This document shows positions 7,240 through 26,160 of a stretch of DNA of 50,747 nt, in pieces (position 1 is the first letter of the stretch; each line of letters opens with the position of its first letter). Source of the DNA: Nitrospirales bacterium (lineage in GTDB: Bacteria; Nitrospirota; Nitrospiria; Nitrospirales; UBA8639); contig JAJEJG010000022.1 of assembly GCA_022828225.1 (NCBI GenBank), positions 1 through 50,747 on the forward strand. The letters run 5' to 3'. The position numbers were made by a program, and so were the translations under genes. The notes below the pieces were generated by a model that saw nothing but the letters and a program-made list of their open reading frames with translations, was not told the origin of the DNA and made no database searches.

Positions 7240-8301
7240 ATGACTGCTCCCGGCGACAACCCCATAGTGCTCGAACTGAGGGAAGTGACCTGCTCGTATG
7301 ACACCGGCTCCCCGGCGGTGATGGGCATTACCTTCTCGGCGCGGAAAGGCGAGATCATCTGTTTGTTGGGACCATCCGGATGCGGGAAGACCACGACGCT
7401 TCGAGCAATCGCGGGATTCGAACCGGTGGCCTCCGGCGAAATCAGGTTGAACAGCAACGTCGTCTCGACAACTGGCCGGCACGTCTCGCCTGAACAACGG
7501 CGGGTCGGCATGGTGTTCCAGGACTATGCTCTCTTCCCCCACTTGACGGTACGGGATAACGTGGGCTTCGGACTGGCCTCAGCCACGGCGGACGACCGTC
7601 GCGGACGAGTTGACGAAATGCTGTCTCTTACCGGGCTTACTGAATTCGCCGGGCGATATCCGCACGCCCTTTCCGGCGGCCAACAGCAGCGCGCGGCATT
7701 GGCGCGAGCCTTGGCCCCACAACCCGTGTTGCTTTTGTTGGACGAACCCTTCAGCAACCTGGACCCGGATACGACTGAACGTATGCGTGTGGAACTCCTG
7801 CACCTGCTGAAATCCACTGAAACAACCGCCGTGCTCGTGACGCATGATCATGAAGAAGCCTTTGCCATGGCAGACTACGTGGCCGTCCTGAACAACGGGA
7901 AACTCGAACAATTCACCACACCCGAAACGACCTACCATCTCCCGGTTTCACGCTTTGTCGCGGAGTTCGTGGGGCAGGCCGATTTCATTCCCGGAACCGT
8001 TCGCGACTCCGTGGTCGTCACGCAACTCGGTACGTTCCCGGTCCCCCCGGATTACTTGGGCACCCCCGAGGTCGTGGTCATGATTCGGCCGGACGACGTG
8101 CACATTCGTGAAAACAAGGATGGTGACGGAACAGTGATATCCCGCCAGTTTCGCGGCTCGGAGATCATTTACGGAATCCGCCTGGGTTCCGGCGACTTCG
8201 TGCATAGCAGCGAAGCATCGACCCGGTTCTTTGCCCTCGACTCGAAGGTGGAGTTGGAAGTCATTGCCACCCATACGGTATTATTCGACAGAAAGGCCTG
8301 A
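7240..8301 (+). CDS. fbpC: Ferric iron ABC transporter, ATP-binding protein
   Basis: The 353-residue ATPase has Walker A GPSGCGKTT near residue 45, a Q-loop in VFQDYALFPHL, the signature LSGGQQQRAALARAL, Walker B LLLLDEPFSNLD and the switch histidine in VTHDHEE. The last 110 residues form the TOBE-like regulatory domain found in FbpC/PotA-type ATPases (for example VVMIRPDDVHI). It energises import through FbpB. It is separated from fbpB by 64 bp without a terminator, so it is cotranscribed. Confidence 0.92.
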   Translation: MTAPGDNPIVLELREVTCSYDTGSPAVMGITFSARKGEIICLLGPSGCGKTTTLRAIAGFEPVASGEIRLNSNVVSTTGRHVSPEQRRVGMVFQDYALFPHLTVRDNVGFGLASATADDRRGRVDEMLSLTGLTEFAGRYPHALSGGQQQRAALARALAPQPVLLLLDEPFSNLDPDTTERMRVELLHLLKSTETTAVLVTHDHEEAFAMADYVAVLNNGKLEQFTTPETTYHLPVSRFVAEFVGQADFIPGTVRDSVVVTQLGTFPVPPDYLGTPEVVVMIRPDDVHIRENKDGDGTVISRQFRGSEIIYGIRLGSGDFVHSSEASTRFFALDSKVELEVIATHTVLFDRKA

Positions 8302-8305
8302 AAAA

Positions 8306-8327
8306 CCTGACGCGTGGGTGCGTCAGG
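8306..8327. terminator. Perfect hairpin downstream of fbpC
   Basis: CCTGACGC (8306-8313), a 6-base loop and GCGTCAGG (8320-8327) make a perfect 8-bp stem a few bases after the fbpC stop codon. It is preceded by five A residues but not followed by a T run. It would therefore be a stronger rho-independent terminator for antisense than for sense transcription. It may instead protect the 3' end of the fbp mRNA. Confidence 0.5.
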
Positions 8328-8373
8328 TGAACAAGGCCGGGAGGCCCAATTCGCAATCTCAGCATTCAGTGTT

Positions 8374-8379
8374 TATAAT
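8374..8379 (+). promoter_or_regulatory. Possible -10 element upstream of the Spy-like gene
   Basis: A perfect TATAAT lies about 105 bp before the Spy-like start codon, in the gap after the fbpC hairpin. The best -35 candidate, TTCGCA 18 bp upstream, is weak, so an activator would probably be needed. Confidence 0.35.
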
Positions 8380-8483
8380 GTTTTTATGGATGAGGTTGTC
8401 AGGCTGGAAACGCTGTACCTCAAAACCCTTTGTCCCATCGCCTGAACGTTTGTAACGTCTTTATCTTTTAGGAGGAACAGAAC

Positions 8484-9182
8484 ATGAGAATTCATGAACC
8501 ACCTTCATGGTTTTTACCCGTATCCTTATTGACCATTTTCTTCCTGCTGGTCACCGTTCCGGCCTTTGCCGATCCTCATGGCTTCATGCGTGGAGATTCC
8601 AAGAGTATGTCTTCGAGTTCATCTCCTCATGGCCCTTCCGGTTCTTATGGCCGTGGCGGGCATCCTTCAAAATCTTCGTATGAGGGGTATAAAAAACACC
8701 ACGCCAAGAGGCCCGGTCATGGTGGTATGAGTTCCACTCATCCCGGGAAACATCAAAGTGCAGCGGATTTTATTAAGCATATCTTAAAATTCAAAGAAGG
8801 AATGAGCCTGACGACCGAACAGGAGCAGCAACTCCACGCACTGAAGACGGATTACAAGCGAACCCGGATCAAGATGAAGGCTGAAGTGGATTTGGCCAAT
8901 GTTGATTTACATGAAGTCCTGAAAAACGAGAAGGCGAGTCTGGCTGACATCGAAAAAGAATTCAACAAGCTTCATACCTTAAAAACGAAGCTGTATATGG
9001 CGTCAATCAAAGCTAAGCGGGACGCCAAAGGCGTGCTGTCCGACGAGCAACGCACACGGATGGGCAAAATTCACCAACGCATCAAATCCCATGGCGGCAA
9101 CATGGCGCACTCCGGTGATTATTCCAAGTACAAGAAAAGCAAGGAAAGCATGGGCCACGGATTCAAGGGACACATGAAGTAA
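8484..9182 (+). CDS. Spy/CpxP-like periplasmic protein with His/Gly/Ser-rich region
   Basis: The 232-residue protein has a signal peptide of about 29 residues (LLTIFFLLVTVPAFA). A low-complexity segment rich in Ser, Gly, His and Lys follows (about 30-95), then a helical domain with the LTxxQ-type motifs LTTEQEQQLHALK and LSDEQRTRMGKIH. This is the layout of the Spy/CpxP/zinc-resistance family of periplasmic chaperones and metal sensors. The C-terminus is again His/Gly/Lys-rich, which may bind metal. AGGAGG precedes the ATG closely. A terminator follows directly. Its role next to the iron importer is unknown. Confidence 0.75.
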   Translation: MRIHEPPSWFLPVSLLTIFFLLVTVPAFADPHGFMRGDSKSMSSSSSPHGPSGSYGRGGHPSKSSYEGYKKHHAKRPGHGGMSSTHPGKHQSAADFIKHILKFKEGMSLTTEQEQQLHALKTDYKRTRIKMKAEVDLANVDLHEVLKNEKASLADIEKEFNKLHTLKTKLYMASIKAKRDAKGVLSDEQRTRMGKIHQRIKSHGGNMAHSGDYSKYKKSKESMGHGFKGHMK

Positions 9183-9210
9183 CTCATTCAGTTGCAACAT
9201 TCGATAAAGA

Positions 9211-9240
9211 AAAGGGTCGCCTCGTGCGGCCCTTTTTCTG
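9211..9240 (+). terminator. Intrinsic terminator, probably bidirectional
   Basis: AAAGGGTCGC pairs with GCGGCCCTTT around a CTCGT loop and is followed by TTTTTCTG. The mirror-side AAAGAAAAGGG provides a T-rich tract on the minus strand, so it can also end transcription of the convergent apbE operon. Confidence 0.8.
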
Positions 9241-9262
9241 TCACAAACTATACCCGGACAGA

Positions 9263-10288
9263 TTAAGGTTGCAGGCTCAACTGTAACCGATCCTGCAATC
9301 CTGAAGAGACGGATACGGCCCCATCCGCGCCGACGATCACGCCTTCAACTCCAGACAGGCTTTCAAGCAACGCCATGCCTTTTTCCGGCCCCATAACGAA
9401 GATGCCGGTATCCAGGCCATCAGCCAACACCCCGGTTTTCGCTACGACGGTCACGCTCTGCGAGAGACGCGCGGGCTGAAGCGTTTGAGGATCGAGAATG
9501 TGATGATAGCGAATGCCGTCTTTCTCGAAATAGCGTTGATAATCACCCGCCGTGGAAACGGCTTCATCTTCGAGTTCGAGTTGCCCGATCGTGATCCCGT
9601 TCTCCTTTCGCGGATGTTGGATGCCGAATATGAACCGTTGGCCGTCAGGCAACCGTCCAAAGGTTTTCATATCTCCGGAAATCGCGACTACACCCGCCGA
9701 AGCACCGGCTTCCTGCATCACACGGGCCGCGAAATCCGCTGCATAGCCCTTGCCAATACCGCCGATATCCACCCGCATCCCGGAACGGGCCAGAAACACG
9801 GTACCCGCCTCCCTATCGATATGAATAGCGGAAAGATCCATGAGAGGACGCGCGGCTTCCAATTCCTCATGCGTCGGGACGCGCCCGTCCCGACTGACGT
9901 TCCAGGCCTCGACGGCCGGACCGACGGCAATATTGAAGCCGCCTTCCGTCAACCGGGCCATTTCCAAAGAATGCTCAAGAAGTTCGATCGTTTCCGGACT
10001 TGCCGCAACGGCTCGATGCCCGGCCGCGGCGTTGATCCGTGACATTTCGCTGTCTGGAATCCACGTGCTCAGGATCTGCTCCAAACGATGAATTTCCGCG
10101 AACCCTCGCTCAATCGCCCCGTTGGCCAGTTGTTTGTCCTGAGCCACTGCAGTCAGAAAGACCAGAGTGCCCATATGCATCTGGCCGCGCTTAACCACGT
10201 GCGGTGAAGCGGCATGTCCCGGCAGGCCCGGCCAACACACGAACAAGACACCCAGGAACGCGAGCAAGACAAGACGAATCGGTTTCAT
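9263..10288 (-). CDS. apbE: ApbE-family FAD:protein FMN transferase
   Basis: The 341-residue protein has an N-terminal hydrophobic export segment (LVLLAFLGVLFVCWPG) and the ApbE fold. ApbE covalently attaches FMN from FAD to a threonine or serine of exported redox proteins, using Mg2+. Conserved family segments are VDIGGIGKGYAADFAARVM, the SGDYQRYFEKDG strand, HHILDPQT and the metal-site ADGLDTGIFVMG. The ATG at 10288 is preferred because the longer frame runs back into the upstream lipoprotein gene. It starts 16 bp after that gene's stop codon. The likely target is the FMN-binding protein encoded at 13600-14304. Confidence 0.9.
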   Translation of the reverse strand: MKPIRLVLLAFLGVLFVCWPGLPGHAASPHVVKRGQMHMGTLVFLTAVAQDKQLANGAIERGFAEIHRLEQILSTWIPDSEMSRINAAAGHRAVAASPETIELLEHSLEMARLTEGGFNIAVGPAVEAWNVSRDGRVPTHEELEAARPLMDLSAIHIDREAGTVFLARSGMRVDIGGIGKGYAADFAARVMQEAGASAGVVAISGDMKTFGRLPDGQRFIFGIQHPRKENGITIGQLELEDEAVSTAGDYQRYFEKDGIRYHHILDPQTLQPARLSQSVTVVAKTGVLADGLDTGIFVMGPEKGMALLESLSGVEGVIVGADGAVSVSSGLQDRLQLSLQP

Positions 10289-19010: not shown

Positions 19011-21809
19011 TCACGTGACATCGTCATATTGCAAAAATCGATCGACCCGTTCTTTCAATCTCGTTTGAATGGATTCGCACGTCCCGCCGTCTTCAACTTT
19101 GTTTCCCTTTTTTTCCGTGACGTAAAACACGTCCACGACTTGGTCGAGGCGCGTTCCGATCCTGGCCGAATGCACCGAAAGCCCGAGGTCATATAGCGTT
19201 TTGGCGATCTCATGCAGCAGGCCTTGTTTGTCATCGGCAAACACGTCGATTACAGTAAAGTGGTCCGACGTATCATTATCGATCTTGACCTCGGTGCGGT
19301 TCCGGCGAATCGGTTTTTGGCTCCCAAAGGACACGCGTCGATTCTGTGCCATAAAGGCTTCAATCGAGAGTTCTCCTTTCAACACACTGACGATCGCCTT
19401 TCCCACTTTTTCCAACCTCGCCGGCGTCGGCTCGCTGCTGAAATCAGGGTCTTTGACCCAAAAGGTATCTACCACAACGCCGTCAGGTTTTGTCACAATC
19501 TGAGCGTCAAGCACCCGCAGGCCCTTGGCAGCCAACACGCCCGTCATCTTCATGAACATCCCGGACGCCATGGAATCAAAAGCAATGAGCGAATACTCAC
19601 AGACCTTGAGTTCACGGTTGTAGGTGGAGACAACACCGGGACGCTCCATGGTCAAGGATCGGATGACGGAAAGGTGGGCAATGATACGATTTTTGGCCGT
19701 GCCGGAAAGATACCGTACCGGAAACGTCTCCAATTGGCTCTTGACCCACTCACGGTTCGGAGGAGCCTGGCTCTCGTCAGCTTGTTCACCTGCCGCCACG
19801 TGGGAAGCCGACGATTTCCAAGCCGCAAGGACCTCGTGCGTGACGTCCTCGATGTGCGAAGCGGATTCCACCCCTGCGCTTTGTCCGGACACTTCAGGAA
19901 GGGACATAAGATAGAGTTCAATCAACAACGCTTCTTTCCATTTCGTCAGCACGCCCGGCCCCACCGCCGCAATGTCCGCGGCCGTCAGAAGCAAGAGTTG
20001 TTTCAAGCGTTCGGGAGCATCCACGGCCCGGCTGAACGTGTGCCGCACTTTTTCATCATGAGGATCCCGTCGAAAAGCCGTATTTGCCATCAACAGGTGT
20101 TCATGAACCAGGAACTCCAGGGTTCGGGATTCTTGTACATCAAGTCCTAATCTGACGGATACGTCCTGAGCGATCTTTCGGCCGACTTCGCTGTGGTCTT
20201 CAGGGAGGCCTTTCCCCACGTCGTGAAGAAGCACGGCCAGGTGCAGAAGATCCTTCTCTCGAATTTCCTGGTACACCTGGCCCAACATTCCCGGTTGTTT
20301 CCCTAACGTCTCGACTTTTTTCACGGCCAGGAGGCTGTGTTCGTCCACTGTATATTTGTGGTATTGGTTGAATTGCATGAGGCCCCGTACACGACCAAAA
20401 GCGGGAATCAGTTTTTCCAAAACCCGAGCCTGATGCATCGACGTCAAGGTATCGGCAACTGCCTCGGGTCCTGACAATATTTCTCGAAACCCCCGACTGA
20501 CGTCCTGGGTAGCAAACAGATGGTCTGGTACGCCTTCCATGTGGCGATGAATCTCTTCCAGCACCAACCCATCAACCGGTACGCCTTGTTTTTGCGAGAC
20601 CTGAAAGAGGCTCAAGAGATGCTTCGGATCATCAAGGACCTGCATGATTTTGTCCTCATGGATGGACAACTTCCCGTCAACCGTTTGAAAAAAGCCGTCG
20701 ATCAACGGAGCCGGCCACAGTCGTCTGAGGCGAGTCCAGAAGTTTGCGGAATCTGCACGCTCCACAAATCGCATCGCACGCTGATGAATACCGGTAGTCA
20801 GACGATAATACTGCTGCATGAACTGTTCGACGCCCAGCAGATGCGGTTCATCACGATAGCCAAACTCTTCAGCCATGCGCACTTGTTCGTCGAACGACAA
20901 TATTTCCTGGGCGCGCCCTGCGCCCAAATGGAGCAAGGCGCGCACTTTGAACAAAAACTCTCTTGCTTCGAGCAAGGCCGAATAATCATGATGCGCCAAG
21001 ACGCCACGATCGACCAACTCCTGCAACGTGGAGGCTTGGTATCGGGCCATGCCGACCCATTGCAGCAAGTGGGCGTCTCTTAACCCACCTTTACTTTTCT
21101 TGACGTTCGGTTCCAAGAGAAACACGGTTTCCCCGAACTTGGCATAGTCCTGCTCCCGTTCTTCGAGTTTCTCGCGGATGAAATTCCCCACTCGTTTTCC
21201 CAGCACGCGCTTGGCAAACCGTCGTTGAAACTCTTGAAAGACGACCGGATTGCCGACCAAAAACCGTGACTCCATCAATGCCGTTTTAGCCGACAAATCC
21301 CCCTCTGCCACGACCATACAATCGTGAATCGACCGGACACTATGACCCACCTGAAATCCCAAATCCCATAAATGATGAAATACCTGCTTGGAGAGATCCT
21401 GGACAACCGTGCCGCCGCCGGCGCGATAAAGCATCATGACGTCGATATCGGAAAACGGAGCCAGTTCACGTCGGCCGTACCCTCCCACGGCCACCAGACA
21501 ACAGTGCTGCATGCCCGAAGACGTATCACCGCTCAGTTGCCTGATCACGCTTCGATATCTGCCGATCAGGACCGTATCCACGAGGAAGGTAAAATCCGAC
21601 ACGACTTCCGTCCCGGACGCCCCTTCGCGCAATCGCCCGAGCATGCCTTCACGGCGTGCCTCAAGGACGGCTTGCGTGGAGGTCGCCCCCGATTGAGACG
21701 AACCCACTACTTGTTCCATAGGTTCCTGATTCACCGACGTGCCCCTGTGACGTTGTCGTACACCACGTTCCTGATTTCCTCGTATACCGGCTTGAACATT
21801 GTGCGTCAA
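19011..21809 (-). CDS. glnD: Bifunctional uridylyltransferase/uridylyl-removing enzyme GlnD
   Basis: The protein (932 residues from the TTG at 21809) has a nucleotidyltransferase domain with VAVGGYGRRELAPFSDIDV, a central HD hydrolase domain with LLHDVGKGLPEDHSEVG, and two C-terminal ACT domains near SLIAFDSMASGMFMKMTGVL and FTVIDVFADDKQGLLHEIAK. GlnD senses glutamine and adds or removes UMP on PII proteins, setting nitrogen assimilation. The TTG overlaps the nadE stop codon. A GTG at 21731 with AGGGG upstream, or an ATG at 21719, may be the real start, since the extra N-terminus has no family match. It is translated from the nadE transcript. Confidence 0.93.
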   Translation of the reverse strand: MTHNVQAGIRGNQERGVRQRHRGTSVNQEPMEQVVGSSQSGATSTQAVLEARREGMLGRLREGASGTEVVSDFTFLVDTVLIGRYRSVIRQLSGDTSSGMQHCCLVAVGGYGRRELAPFSDIDVMMLYRAGGGTVVQDLSKQVFHHLWDLGFQVGHSVRSIHDCMVVAEGDLSAKTALMESRFLVGNPVVFQEFQRRFAKRVLGKRVGNFIREKLEEREQDYAKFGETVFLLEPNVKKSKGGLRDAHLLQWVGMARYQASTLQELVDRGVLAHHDYSALLEAREFLFKVRALLHLGAGRAQEILSFDEQVRMAEEFGYRDEPHLLGVEQFMQQYYRLTTGIHQRAMRFVERADSANFWTRLRRLWPAPLIDGFFQTVDGKLSIHEDKIMQVLDDPKHLLSLFQVSQKQGVPVDGLVLEEIHRHMEGVPDHLFATQDVSRGFREILSGPEAVADTLTSMHQARVLEKLIPAFGRVRGLMQFNQYHKYTVDEHSLLAVKKVETLGKQPGMLGQVYQEIREKDLLHLAVLLHDVGKGLPEDHSEVGRKIAQDVSVRLGLDVQESRTLEFLVHEHLLMANTAFRRDPHDEKVRHTFSRAVDAPERLKQLLLLTAADIAAVGPGVLTKWKEALLIELYLMSLPEVSGQSAGVESASHIEDVTHEVLAAWKSSASHVAAGEQADESQAPPNREWVKSQLETFPVRYLSGTAKNRIIAHLSVIRSLTMERPGVVSTYNRELKVCEYSLIAFDSMASGMFMKMTGVLAAKGLRVLDAQIVTKPDGVVVDTFWVKDPDFSSEPTPARLEKVGKAIVSVLKGELSIEAFMAQNRRVSFGSQKPIRRNRTEVKIDNDTSDHFTVIDVFADDKQGLLHEIAKTLYDLGLSVHSARIGTRLDQVVDVFYVTEKKGNKVEDGGTCESIQTRLKERVDRFLQYDDVT

Positions 21810-23584
21810 CGCTTGACGTATCGATTGGTAATCGGCATCCGGCGATCTTTCCCTAGCGCTTTTTGCGTGATTTTGATCCCGATCGGAGCCTGGCGGCGTT
21901 TGTATTCACTACGGTCAACCATGGCCATCACGCGCCGGACGGTTTGCAAAGGAAACCCCCTGTCCACGATTTCCCGAAGTGAACGTTCTTGTTCAACGTA
22001 CGCTTCCAGGATGGGGTCAAGGACGTCATAGGGCGGCAGGGTGTCCTGATCGGTTTGATCGGGCTTGAGCTCGGCCGACGGCGCCCGGGCGATGATCCGT
22101 TGGGGAATCACGGCCTTGCCATGGGCGTCAACGGCCTTGCGGTTCCGATACCCGGCCAAGTCATAGACCAGGACTTTGGAGATGTCTTTAATCACGGCGA
22201 ACCCGCCGGCCATATCTCCGTACAGGGTGGCATACCCGACGCTCATTTCACTCTTGTTGCCGGTCGTCAGGACCAAGTCTCCGAACTTGTTGGACAGAGC
22301 CATCACAAGGGTACCACGGATGCGCGCCTGGAGATTTTCTTCCGTGGCATCGGACGCGCGTTCGCCGAACGTTCCAGACAGGGTCCGCACGTATTGTTTC
22401 CAGAGACGCGTAATCGGAATGGTCAATAACCGAACGTTCAACGCCTTCAGCAAGGCTTTGGCGTCGACGCGGCTTTCCGGCGAGGTAAAGGGTGAGGGCA
22501 TGAATACCCCCGTCACCCGGTCAGGTCCAAGAGCATCCGCGGCAATCACAGCAGTCAGGGCCGAATCGATCCCTCCGCTGACCGCGACCAACACGCGGCG
22601 AAAACCGTTCTTCCTGACGTAGTCGCGCACACCAGTCACCAAGGCCCGGTAGATTTGTTCCAAATCGTCAGGCAAGTCCGGATTTGTGAGCGGCACCGGC
22701 TTATTCGGTTTTCGTCGCGGCACCGGAAACAGCCTGACTCGCTTGACGGGATACCGTTGCGTAAACCGCGTGTCCCTACCCGATGAACGAGCCTTTCCAT
22801 CAAACGACAGGTCGGTCACCAGCAGTTCTTCTTCAAAGGCCCGGGCCCGCGTGAGGACCGTTCCCGTTCGATCAACGATCATACTGTTTCCATCAAAGAC
22901 GACTTCGTCCTGACCTCCGACCATATTGGTATAACTCACCATCACGTCGTTTTCCGTTGCGCGTTGCACCAACATGCGTTCCCGCGTCCGTCCTTTTCCC
23001 ACGTGATAGGGGGAGGCGTTGATATTCAGGATCAATTGCGCTCGCCCGACAAAGACCTGGTCACGCGTCGGCCCGCCGGCGTACCAGATATCCTCACAGA
23101 TGTTCACGCCAAACCGCACGCCCTGGACCTGGCAGACCAGCGCCCTTTTGCCGGGCGAAAAATACCGGCTTTCGTCGAATACCCCGTAATTCGGCAGGAA
23201 CGTCTTTCGGCAAGTGGCCACGACCTGCCGGTCATGAATCACCGCGGCTGCATTGAACACGTGCCGAAGCCCCGAGGGCACGACCAAGGGAGCCGAATTC
23301 CGCAAACGAATCCTTCCACCTTCTTCAAGATATCCGACGATCACGGTGAGGCCCCTGCACTGTGTCGTCAACCATAGAAGGGCTTGATACGTGTCGCGGA
23401 GAAAGCTCGGGCGTAAGACCAGGTCTTCAGGCGGATAGCCGGTGATCGCCAGTTCCGGGAAAACAACAAGATCCGCACCAGCCCGACGGGCGCGCTTCAC
23501 CCATTGACCCATCGCACGAACGTTCCCGTCCACGTCGCCCACGACGGGATTCATCTGAACCATGGCAAGTCGGCAAGTCTGCAT
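21806..23584 (-). CDS. nadE: Glutamine-dependent NAD+ synthetase
   Basis: The 592-residue two-domain enzyme has an N-terminal nitrilase-type glutaminase with catalytic Glu in FPELAITGYPPEDL, Lys in RKTFLPNYGVFDE and Cys in GVNICEDIWY. The C-terminal synthetase has the ATP-binding loop VAVSGGIDSALTAV and NKSEMSVGYATLYGD. It amidates nicotinate adenine dinucleotide to NAD+ with glutamine as nitrogen donor. The ATG at 23584 fits the family N-terminus. An intrinsic terminator with a 9-base U run ends 4 bp before this ATG and no Shine-Dalgarno site separates them, which suggests attenuation. It overlaps glnD. Confidence 0.93.
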   Translation of the reverse strand: MQTCRLAMVQMNPVVGDVDGNVRAMGQWVKRARRAGADLVVFPELAITGYPPEDLVLRPSFLRDTYQALLWLTTQCRGLTVIVGYLEEGGRIRLRNSAPLVVPSGLRHVFNAAAVIHDRQVVATCRKTFLPNYGVFDESRYFSPGKRALVCQVQGVRFGVNICEDIWYAGGPTRDQVFVGRAQLILNINASPYHVGKGRTRERMLVQRATENDVMVSYTNMVGGQDEVVFDGNSMIVDRTGTVLTRARAFEEELLVTDLSFDGKARSSGRDTRFTQRYPVKRVRLFPVPRRKPNKPVPLTNPDLPDDLEQIYRALVTGVRDYVRKNGFRRVLVAVSGGIDSALTAVIAADALGPDRVTGVFMPSPFTSPESRVDAKALLKALNVRLLTIPITRLWKQYVRTLSGTFGERASDATEENLQARIRGTLVMALSNKFGDLVLTTGNKSEMSVGYATLYGDMAGGFAVIKDISKVLVYDLAGYRNRKAVDAHGKAVIPQRIIARAPSAELKPDQTDQDTLPPYDVLDPILEAYVEQERSLREIVDRGFPLQTVRRVMAMVDRSEYKRRQAPIGIKITQKALGKDRRMPITNRYVKR

Positions 23585-23587
23585 CGC

Positions 23588-23628
23588 AAAAAAAAACGCC
23601 CTCTTCCCTTCGGGGGAAGGAGGACGCC
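23588..23628 (-). terminator. Intrinsic terminator directly before nadE (possible attenuator)
   Basis: On the minus strand CTTCCC-CCGAA-GGGAAG is the core of a longer stem (GGCGTCCTC with GAGGGCG, one bulge), followed by nine T residues. It ends the GAF-GAF-ANTAR transcript and also lies downstream of a promoter at 23666-23694. Any nadE message starting at that promoter must therefore pass through it. An in-frame extension of nadE from ATG 23638 would run through the hairpin. Confidence 0.8.
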
Positions 23629-23665
23629 TTTGTCCCATCAACCGTTCATGAGTCGTCTGTTGGGC

Positions 23666-23694
23666 TTGTACCAACGATCCGGAGGGCCTGTCAA
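23666..23694 (-). promoter_or_regulatory. Sigma-70 promoter candidate of nadE-glnD
   Basis: On the minus strand the consensus TTGACA (23689-23694) is followed after 17 bp by GTACAA, or after 18 bp by TACAAG. It lies 29 bp after the ANTAR gene stop codon and would give a leader of about 75 bases ending in the terminator hairpin. Confidence 0.5.
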
Positions 23695-23722
23695 GGAAAC
23701 GCGATAGAGGACCGATCGTCGG

Positions 23723-25024
23723 TCACGACTGATCCATGGATCCACCTTCCAATTCTCCGGCCAGAATGACGGCTTCAGCAATCTCTCGCATGGATTTTCG
23801 CATGTTCATGCTTTGACGCTGGAGCAACCTGAACGCATCGGCTTCCGACAATTTGCGGGAATGCATGAGGTAACCCTTGGCTCGTTCGACGAGTTTCCTG
23901 ACAGTCAAGGCTTCCTGCATTTCAAATGATTTTTCCATGAGACGCGTGTGCTCAATGGCTACCGCCGCCTGGTTGGCAATGGCCTGCATGATTTTGATTT
24001 CCTTGTCGTCAAAGGCATGCAACGTGGAGGTGTACGTATTGAGCACACCGATAACCTTTTCCTTGCTCAGCATGGGCACCGACAATAACGAACACAGCGA
24101 CTCTCGTTTGGCCAGATCCTGGTAAAAAAACTCTTTTTCCTTCTTCACGTCAGACACGTAAATCGGCCGTTGTTCTTTGACCGCCCTCCCGCTGATACTC
24201 TGGCCGATCCTGAGCGGAGGTTTCCGGCGATAGGCTTCGCTCAGGCTCTGGGTCGCCGCAATACGCAACCGTTGGCTCTCCTCGTCAACCAACATCAGTG
24301 AACAGATCGTCGAGTCCATCATCTGCGCCGTCGTCATCACGATCAACTGCAGAACTTCCTCGATCACGCGATTGGAGGCGACGGTTTCGGAAACCTGGGA
24401 CAGGGTATCCAGTTGTAACGTTTGCCGCTTCATTTCATCATACAAGCGAGCGTTTTCGATGGCACCCCCGACCTGGTTCGCAATCGTCGACAGCAGCGCC
24501 AGTTCAGCGTCCTGATAGCGCCTCGCCCGCTTGTGTTGCACGTTAATGACCCCGATGACATTGCCTTTGGTCACCACGGGAAGCGAGACAAACGCCTGAT
24601 ACCGGTCTTCCGGCAAATTGTGAAATAACTTAAACCGGGGATCATCGCTCGCGTGGCGAGGAATGACCACCGGCACCCTTTCCTGGGCCACCCAGCCCGT
24701 AATGCCTTCTCCCAATCCCACGGAAATCCGGCCGATGAGCTTGGGATGGGGATTCTTGGATGAGCGCAAGACGAGTTCGTCCCGATTCTCCGAGACGAGA
24801 TACAACAAACAGGAATCGGCTTTCGTGACTTCGACCACCACTTCGACGATCTGTTTGAGCACGGCTTCCAAATCGAGCGTGCTGCTGATCGACTCGCTAA
24901 TCCGGTACAACACTTCCACTTCCCGCGTTCGTTCACGCAAGACGGCCTTGACGTCCGGTTTGGACCTCTTGGGGGACTTCTTCGCCGGCGTTTTCTTTCT
25001 TGGAGGCATCTCAAGCATGTCCAT
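23723..25024 (-). CDS. GAF-GAF-ANTAR antiterminator-type regulator
   Basis: The 433-residue protein begins with a Lys/Pro-rich basic segment and a short coiled coil (VLRERTREVEVLYRISESIS). Two GAF sensor domains follow (about 45-200 and 215-365), then a C-terminal ANTAR domain with KLVERAKGYLMHSRKLSEAD and AFRLLQRQSMNMRKSMREIA. ANTAR domains bind paired hairpins in leader RNAs and prevent termination, while GAF domains sense small molecules. The start at 25024 is preferred because the longer frame runs through a REP-like repeat, whose GGGAGAGGG end serves as the ribosome-binding site. It sits 63 bp downstream of aroB and just before the nadE leader terminator. Confidence 0.85.
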   Translation of the reverse strand: MDMLEMPPRKKTPAKKSPKRSKPDVKAVLRERTREVEVLYRISESISSTLDLEAVLKQIVEVVVEVTKADSCLLYLVSENRDELVLRSSKNPHPKLIGRISVGLGEGITGWVAQERVPVVIPRHASDDPRFKLFHNLPEDRYQAFVSLPVVTKGNVIGVINVQHKRARRYQDAELALLSTIANQVGGAIENARLYDEMKRQTLQLDTLSQVSETVASNRVIEEVLQLIVMTTAQMMDSTICSLMLVDEESQRLRIAATQSLSEAYRRKPPLRIGQSISGRAVKEQRPIYVSDVKKEKEFFYQDLAKRESLCSLLSVPMLSKEKVIGVLNTYTSTLHAFDDKEIKIMQAIANQAAVAIEHTRLMEKSFEMQEALTVRKLVERAKGYLMHSRKLSEADAFRLLQRQSMNMRKSMREIAEAVILAGELEGGSMDQS

Positions 25025-25030
25025 GTTTCC

Positions 25031-25065
25031 CTCTCCCCGCGGGAGAGGGTTAGGATAAGGGGTCT
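25031..25065. repeat. REP-like hairpin, CCCTCTCCC family
   Basis: CCCTCTCCCCGCGGGAGAGGG is followed by TTAGGATAAGGGG, the same palindrome type as at 10962-10984. It lies between aroB and the GAF-GAF-ANTAR gene, and its purine-rich arm is just upstream of the latter's start codon. Confidence 0.75.
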
Positions 25066-25068
25066 TGC

Positions 25069-26160
25069 TCAACTGAACTGCGCATGCCACCGTCTCACCA
25101 CGCGCGGTTCCAGCGGCAAGACTTGAACTCTGCCTATCGACCGGGGAAGCACGCAATAGATGGTGCCACCCGCCACCTTTTTATCATGGCCCATAGCCCG
25201 CCAGAATTTCAAAAAATTATGGGCCGGCATCCGCTCGGGAAGGCCCGTTCGCCGTATCAGGGCACACTGTCTGTCCACCGCAGCCGCCGAGCACAACTCC
25301 AAGTGATGGGCCAGGTGGGCCTCATGCACCATACCGATTGCTACGGCTTCGCCATGGATATATTTTCGGTACCGGCTCAGAGCTTCCAACGCGTGACCGA
25401 TCGTATGTCCATAATTCAAAATCCGACGCAGACCCGATTCCCGTTCATCCTTGGCCACCACCTTGGCTTTGATTTCACAGCAACGCTTCACGACCGTTTG
25501 GACGTCCGTCTCCCGCATATCGAGAATGTGTTCCATCCGGTCCTCCAAGAACGCGAAAAACCTTCTATCGGCAATGACCCCGTATTTAATGACTTCCGCC
25601 ATCCCGGCCAACCACTCACGCTTGGGGAGAGTCCGCAACGTATTCGTATCGGATACCACGAGCGCCGGCTGGTAGAACGCGCCGATCAAATTCTTCCCTG
25701 AGGGATGATTGACCCCGGTTTTCCCGCCCACGCTGGAATCCACTTGGGCCACCAGCGTGGTCGCCACTTGAATGAAAGGGATGCCTCGCAGATACATCGA
25801 CGCGGCAAAACCGGTGATGTCCCCAATGACTCCTCCCCCCAACGCCACGAGCGCGGACCGGCGTTCGAATCGATGCTTGACCAATTCATCGACAATGGAC
25901 GAGGCCCACCGAAGCGTTTTGGTCCGCTCACCTTCAGGAATGCTGATCAGGTGACAGGTGAAGCCCGCCTTGACGAGCGCCTGTTTGAGCGATGCCCCAT
26001 ACAAACGGGCCAGCGCCGGATTGGTCACGACGCCGACTTTCCCGGACAGACCCAATCCCTGCAAATATGCTCCCATCCGGTGAAGGCTGCCGGGAGCGAT
26101 CACGATGTCGTAACTTCGCTTGCCGAGACCGACTTTTACAATTTCATTCGAGCGAGTCAT
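25069..26160 (-). CDS. aroB: 3-dehydroquinate synthase
   Basis: The 363-residue cytoplasmic enzyme converts DAHP to 3-dehydroquinate, the second step of the shikimate pathway, using NAD+ and a divalent metal. Visible family segments are the nucleotide-binding VALGGGVIGDITGFAASMYLR, the substrate-site QVDSSVGGKTGVNHP and NLIGAFYQP, and the metal-binding ILNYGHTIGHALE with HGEAVAIGM. Its length is normal for the family. It starts 63 bp after the aroC stop codon in the same direction, so the two shikimate genes are probably cotranscribed with the pil genes upstream. Confidence 0.95.
   Translation of the reverse strand: MTRSNEIVKVGLGKRSYDIVIAPGSLHRMGAYLQGLGLSGKVGVVTNPALARLYGASLKQALVKAGFTCHLISIPEGERTKTLRWASSIVDELVKHRFERRSALVALGGGVIGDITGFAASMYLRGIPFIQVATTLVAQVDSSVGGKTGVNHPSGKNLIGAFYQPALVVSDTNTLRTLPKREWLAGMAEVIKYGVIADRRFFAFLEDRMEHILDMRETDVQTVVKRCCEIKAKVVAKDERESGLRRILNYGHTIGHALEALSRYRKYIHGEAVAIGMVHEAHLAHHLELCSAAAVDRQCALIRRTGLPERMPAHNFLKFWRAMGHDKKVAGGTIYCVLPRSIGRVQVLPLEPRVVRRWHAQFS

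Follow-up and report, generated by a model that had tools for sequence, protein, structure and literature searches.

The window (the whole 50,747-nt stretch of Nitrospirales DNA analysed here) carries a gene for a protein with two GAF domains and an ANTAR domain directly upstream of nadE-glnD. The question raised by this locus is whether the protein controls the two downstream genes through the leader that separates them, as the original prediction had proposed, and whether its control extends to other genes in the same genome.

The GAF-GAF-ANTAR protein and its neighbourhood

The domain assignment of the original prediction was borne out by Pfam, which placed two GAF domains before an ANTAR domain (residues 369-420). 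The latter matched PF03861 with an E-value of 4.6e-19 and 68.4 bits against a curated cut-off of 27.3, which places it in the family. In a whole-genome search, this was the only ANTAR protein encoded by the window's genome. An internal ATG at approximately 25009 is a possible real start of the gene. At its 5' end there is also a palindrome, CCCTCTCCCCGCGGGAGAGGG (25027-25060, read as NPLPRGEG in frame), which looks like a dispersed repeat and would inflate the longest ORF.

On the minus strand, the gene order is aroC, aroB, the GAF-GAF-ANTAR gene, a gap of 138 nt, nadE and glnD (Table 1). The identities of nadE and glnD also held, both scoring above their NCBIfam cut-offs. There is a 4-nt overlap between the glnD ORF and the nadE stop, and the adjacency of the two genes is kept in many relatives, while the aroC-aroB-ANTAR synteny is largely kept among relatives as well. 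Orthologs of the ANTAR protein were present in 50 of the 59 genomes searched (the window's genome counted), with an identity of about 72% when Nitrospirales genera are compared and of about 55% for Acidobacteriota.

When the ANTAR domain was aligned with EutV, using the RNA-contact residues given in PMC8934654, R142, K143, E146, K149, E160 and M172 were identical, and two contacts showed conservative changes (K147R and Y164F, the latter position being F in Rv1626 too). The nearest solved relatives of the first GAF domain include the GAF domains of PEP-protein phosphotransferases (3ci6, 3trc). Since glutamine regulates PtsP, the phosphotransferase of the nitrogen PTS, it is by analogy a candidate ligand of the GAF domains, which we offer as a lead only.

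Table 1. Features of the nadE-glnD locus in the window, and related leaders elsewhere in the same genome
Feature	Position	Strand	Evidence or context
aroB	25069..26160	-	upstream neighbour of the ANTAR gene; outside the switch
GAF-GAF-ANTAR protein, 433 aa	23723..25024	-	Pfam GAF_2/GAF x2 + ANTAR PF03861
-35 element TTGACA, nadE leader promoter	23689..23694	-	invariant in 10 aligned species of the genus
-10 element TACAAG, 18-nt spacer	23665..23670	-	block TCGTTGGTACAA nearly invariant in the genus
P2 antiterminator hairpin (putative) GGAC-AAAGGC-GTCC, A1 + G4 hexaloop	23622..23635	-	genome pattern match, R1, alignment
Intrinsic terminator stem-loop	23597..23627	-	RNA folding and alignment
Terminator U tract, 9 T	23588..23596	-	sequence; ends 3 nt before nadE ATG
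nadE, glutamine-dependent NAD synthase (CN_hydrolase + NAD_synthase)	21806..23584	-	NF010588 above cut-off
glnD, [protein-PII] uridylyltransferase	19011..21809	-	TIGR01693 above cut-off
Leader	C7:72332-72382		R1 E 0.0016; before BBP2 porin-amtB-glnK-amtB-glnA operon
Leader	C14:3034-3087		R1 E 0.03; before porin-urtA...urea transporter-urease (ureC) cluster
Leader	C22:206401-206452		R1 E 4e-4; before sensorless NifA-like sigma-54 activator

A hexaloop hairpin overlaps the terminator of the nadE leader

The promoter-like TTGACA that had been pointed out downstream of the ANTAR gene starts 28 nt after its stop codon, and the same element was seen in other genera, where the -10 element is TATAAT-like. 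From this promoter, a nadE transcript is predicted to start near 23658, so that about 70 nt would be transcribed up to the end of the U tract. The intrinsic terminator expected before nadE folds at -31.0 kcal/mol. It went unreported by a simple terminator scan of the window, probably owing to a bulge in the stem, and an Rfam search of the window gave no family over its gathering score and nothing meaningful at a lax threshold.

The original prediction had seen no clear ANTAR hexaloop here, which has to be corrected. A 14-nt hairpin, P2 (GGACAAAGGCGTCC), with the hexaloop AAAGGC, whose A1 and G4 match those of ANTAR targets (PMC3369931), lies inside the 5' arm of the terminator and is conserved in relatives. 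Its 3' arm, GTCC, is the start of the terminator 5' stem (GTCCTCC...GAGGGC), therefore P2 and the terminator are mutually exclusive. With P2 forced, the leader folded at -19.9 kcal/mol, and the modelled cost of approximately 11 kcal/mol would need to be offset by bound protein or by the kinetics of transcription. A covariance model built from nadE leaders (R1), which was used together with a hexaloop pattern search of the genome, matched the P2 of the window at 6.6e-14, the window leader being a training member of R1. The GACCGA/TCGGTC hairpin (23710-23724) noted in the original prediction was rejected as an ANTAR target: its loop has only 3 nt, it overlaps the ANTAR stop codon and so precedes the promoter, and its sequence varies among relatives.

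The overlap of P2 and terminator, an arrangement known from ANTAR systems, was retained in most nadE leaders of Nitrospirales, with 36 distinct leaders in which GGAC-[RANGNN]-GTCC overlaps a terminator. In ten aligned species of the window's genus, the -35 and -10 elements, P2 and the terminator stem were nearly invariant, with GGACAA(A/T)GGCGTCC in all ten, whereas the stretch between the -10 element and P2 varied in both sequence and length. Across genera, six-base P2 loops had G at position 4 in 73 of 73 cases and A at position 2 in 69 of 73, with position 1 often being G, and a U tract of 7-10 nt after a G+C-rich stem was conserved. Several lineages have kept the ANTAR gene and lost the nadE leader (G002, G007, G009); the same combination was found at L013-L015, L070, L075, L077, L080, L089 and others, and in some lineages the ANTAR gene and nadE abut with no leader between them. 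Judging from these alignments, nadE is a frequent, not universal, predicted target of the switch. In one family (f2; L085-L094), the nadE leaders contain two successive hexaloop-terminator units, i.e. tandem attenuators, and a separate hairpin such as TAGCAC-GATGAT-GTGCTA was also seen upstream of nadE.

The P1 hexaloop and its absence from the window leader

A P1-type hexaloop upstream of P2 was found in 77 of 95 leaders, compared with 8.7% of dinucleotide shuffles. For the covariation analysis, P1 was picked by its loop and closing AC/GT only in 63 distinct leaders; the next three stem pairs were formed in 100, 81 and 92% of them, against 85, 41 and 79% after arm shuffling, and none of 5000 shuffles reached the observed pairing sum, showing that the outer stem pairs covary.

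Many other genera do have P1 at nadE, and it is also present at other targets. In the window and the five congeners scanned, no P1 could be recognised at nadE, leaving the leader there without the first element of the dual-hexaloop arrangement, and in two genomes (G008, G011) the promoter is so close that little room remains for it. Two other leaders of the window's genome have the complete arrangement of P1, linker and P2-terminator: the urt leader, with P1 GGAAAAC-GAGGAA-GTTTTCC and P2 GGAC-ATTGAC-GTCC, and the NifA-like leader, with P1 GCAATGAC-AAAGTC-GTCATTGC and P2 GGAC-AATGAAC-GTCC, the latter having a 7-nt loop. The genome's own amtB leader (L140, G000:C7 at about 72400) has lost approximately 7 nt, including the P1 hexaloop, compared with G003 and G011; this change, from gtcgagacatcggtgtctcggc to gtcgagtgtctcggc, means that a canonical P1 is absent there too.

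Related leaders precede other nitrogen genes

The hexaloop pattern alone gave 29 matches in the genome and 40 in a reversed control, which is the chance level. What rises above chance is the hexaloop with an overlapping terminator, its conservation, the covariation of P1 and the co-occurrence with the ANTAR protein. Three further leaders were recognised in the genome, upstream of ammonium, urea and NifA-like genes (Table 1); their R1 E-values are modest, and it is the shared anatomy and gene context that carry the argument for a predicted regulon. In these three leaders the terminator lies well before the start codon.

Most of the other R1 matches examined in relatives were located before amt, urt, NifA-like, nirC(-cynS)-nirA and nrtA-type genes. 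In N. moscoviensis, a leader with P1, P2 and terminator precedes a nadE-amtB-glnK-glnD-glnA cluster, and in Omnitrophota a homologous ANTAR gene is the immediate upstream neighbour of amtB-glnK, whose leader contains several hairpins of this type. Loop size is specific to the class of target: P2 loops have six nucleotides at nadE, amt and urt, and seven (e.g. AATGAAC, AATGGGC) in 16 of 16 NifA-like and 6 of 9 nitrite-transporter (FNT) leaders in relatives. One R1 match in the genome, C7:2549-2612, was rejected, being an attenuator-like terminator before pyrR-pyrB and probably a PyrR attenuator with a weak match; h63, h66, h67 and C22:183634 were judged to be chance terminators, and Acidobacteriota records gave weak R1 matches only (0.03-1). 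Beside the amtB-glnA operon (L140), two adjacent genes that lie on opposite strands were noted (7731-10019 and 10062 onward, counted on the reverse complement), the first nucleotidyltransferase-like in appearance and the second of the GlnE adenylyltransferase family.

Co-occurrence of the protein and the RNA motif

All 50 ANTAR-bearing genomes had an R1 match at E<=0.1, whereas eight of the nine ANTAR-less genomes had none and the ninth had a marginal match (h66) that looks unrelated. Over the 59 genomes, which are not phylogenetically independent, the co-occurrence gave a Fisher value of 4e-9, and perhaps two or three events account for the joint losses behind it.

In one genus, five ANTAR-less genomes (G043, G046, G049, G051, G056) all encode AmoA and are thus comammox-type, while the ANTAR-bearing congener does not. 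All five lack both the ANTAR gene and the leader, so that aroB abuts nadE; an ordinary GGAG ribosome site precedes nadE, and Amt was not found. When 77 genomes of that genus were considered, the ANTAR gene was present in 1 of 48 amoA-positive genomes, the exception being 54% complete, and in 13 of 29 amoA-negative genomes. The idea that ANTAR loss is tied exclusively to amoA is weakened by the 16 amoA-negative genomes that also have no ANTAR gene, therefore the loss extends beyond comammox. That amoA-bearing Nitrospira hardly ever have the regulator suggests that a nitrogen-starvation switch was dropped where ammonia is the fuel.

Discussion

Hexaloop-terminator overlap, EutV-type contacts, co-occurrence and joint absence together support the reading that the GAF-GAF-ANTAR protein is, very probably, a trans-acting antiterminator of a nitrogen-acquisition regulon. 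The part of the original prediction in which the protein lets transcription into nadE-glnD has therefore gained comparative support. Beyond that prediction, the switch would serve a regulon wider than these two genes, and it looks like the main nitrogen-starvation switch of the cell.

Protein architecture, RNA motif, terminator overlap, conservation, co-occurrence and target genes are all read from sequence, and from them we infer RNA binding, readthrough, what the signal is and which way the response goes. By default, transcription of nadE-glnD would stop at the leader terminator. The GAF domains may report the metabolic state, most likely nitrogen limitation, and the ANTAR domain would then bind and hold the P2 hairpin (GGAC, loop AAAGGC, GUCC), which would keep the 5' arm of the terminator unpaired and allow RNA polymerase to read into nadE-glnD. 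The same action is envisaged at amtB-glnK-glnA, at the urea uptake/urease operon and at the NifA-like sigma-54 activator, which could coordinate nitrogen uptake with PII signalling, with NAD synthesis from glutamine and with a transcription cascade. Activation under nitrogen limitation is proposed because of the identity of the target genes.

Intergenic terminators are common, and hexaloop patterns taken by themselves are no more frequent in this genome than expected by chance. The terminator before nadE could be the plain end of an aroC-aroB-ANTAR operon or a constitutive attenuator, with the P2 palindrome merely a part of its stem. This is highly improbable, as the terminator is separated from the ANTAR stop by a conserved promoter and reaches to 3 nt before the nadE ATG, G4 and, mostly, A2 of the P2 loop are kept across genera, and the same element precedes unlinked nitrogen operons and is missing from genomes that have no ANTAR gene. 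The leader could also act on translation, in addition to or instead of transcription, if ANTAR binding to P2 freed a ribosome site in the 3' arm of the terminator: the GAGG/GAGGG there is the only Shine-Dalgarno-like stretch before nadE, the U tract nearly reaches the start codon, actinobacterial ANTAR-target RNAs act on translation (PMC8164766), and an ordinary GGAG site precedes nadE in ANTAR-less genomes. However, a conserved U tract after a G+C-rich stem is what termination calls for, and the distance between terminator and start codon at this genome's other three targets speaks against it, making a translational role unlikely.

For the window's genus, another explanation is that the nadE switch is decaying, i.e. 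P1 has been lost, the ANTAR protein is inactive at this leader and nadE is expressed by leaky readthrough. In genomes where P1 is unrecognisable at nadE, the urt and NifA-like leaders do have it, and three congeners have also lost P2. On the other hand, the near-invariance of P2 and the terminator stem in ten species, within variable surroundings, indicates continuing selection, and we regard decay as rather doubtful. Because P2 is strictly conserved, we favour, tentatively, the possibility that nadE-glnD in this genus is under a working single-hexaloop switch, while the same protein uses P1+P2 leaders elsewhere in the cell. Judged by sequence, the protein belongs with the ANTAR antiterminators; the window leader falls short of a full dual-hexaloop ANTAR-target RNA, yet it should work alike. 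Antitermination in E. faecalis depends in vivo on both hexaloops (PMC3369931, PMC8934654), although an ANTAR dimer makes contact with only one of them at any time (PMC8934654).

Among the closest known systems is EutV of E. faecalis, which shares nearly all of the RNA-contact residues and whose eut leaders have A1+G4 hexaloops with a P2 overlapping an intrinsic terminator (PMC3369931, PMC8934654). EutV is, however, a phosphorylated REC-ANTAR response regulator of ethanolamine genes, whereas our protein has two GAF domains and nitrogen genes as predicted targets; the leaders differ from those of eut in that P1 is unrecognisable at nadE in this genus, position 1 of the P2 loop is often G, and two target classes have mostly 7-nt loops. 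NasR of Klebsiella is likewise a one-component ANTAR antiterminator of a nitrogen operon (PMC7496416, PMC3369931), but it senses nitrate/nitrite through a NIT domain and its known target is the nas operon, whereas here sensing would fall to two GAF domains and at least four operons are predicted to be controlled. Ramesh et al. (2012) predicted ANTAR nitrogen regulons in Desulfotomaculum, Pelobacter and others, with leaders before PII, ammonium and urea transporter, nitrate/nitrite and glutamine synthetase genes as in our case; their main text names no Nitrospira, nadE, glnK, amtB or characterised GAF-ANTAR protein (PMC3369931). Glutamine-dependent NadE was tied to nitrogen status via PII by Santos et al. 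(2020), and nadE clusters with PII genes (PMC7196632). That link is control by protein-protein contact, whereas the antitermination predicted here would set the expression of nadE with glnD and, in N. moscoviensis, of amtB-glnK as well. A further case is GnfL/GnfR of Geobacter, in which an ANTAR response regulator controls genes for nitrogen fixation and ammonium. Our search of the open-licence literature found no account of ANTAR control or of a main nitrogen regulator in Nitrospira, no nadE-glnD antitermination and no characterised GAF-ANTAR antiterminator, such absence being weak evidence. ANTAR nitrogen antitermination as a kind is therefore already known; the GAF-GAF protein, its occurrence in Nitrospirales and Omnitrophota, the predicted nadE-glnD and NifA-like activator targets and the P1-less variant appear to be new.

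The P1-less nadE leaders make the need for both hexaloops directly testable. If the single-hexaloop switch is true, it would mean that the recruitment hairpin is dispensable for some antitermination in vivo, and nature would have provided a way to test the revised ANTAR model. For the family, these findings give a likely function to a conserved GAF-GAF-ANTAR protein and would tie glutamine-dependent NAD synthesis to nitrogen uptake at the level of expression, beside the PII-NadE contact. They provide a concrete candidate for the main nitrogen regulator of the Nitrospirales, nitrite oxidisers and comammox bacteria included.
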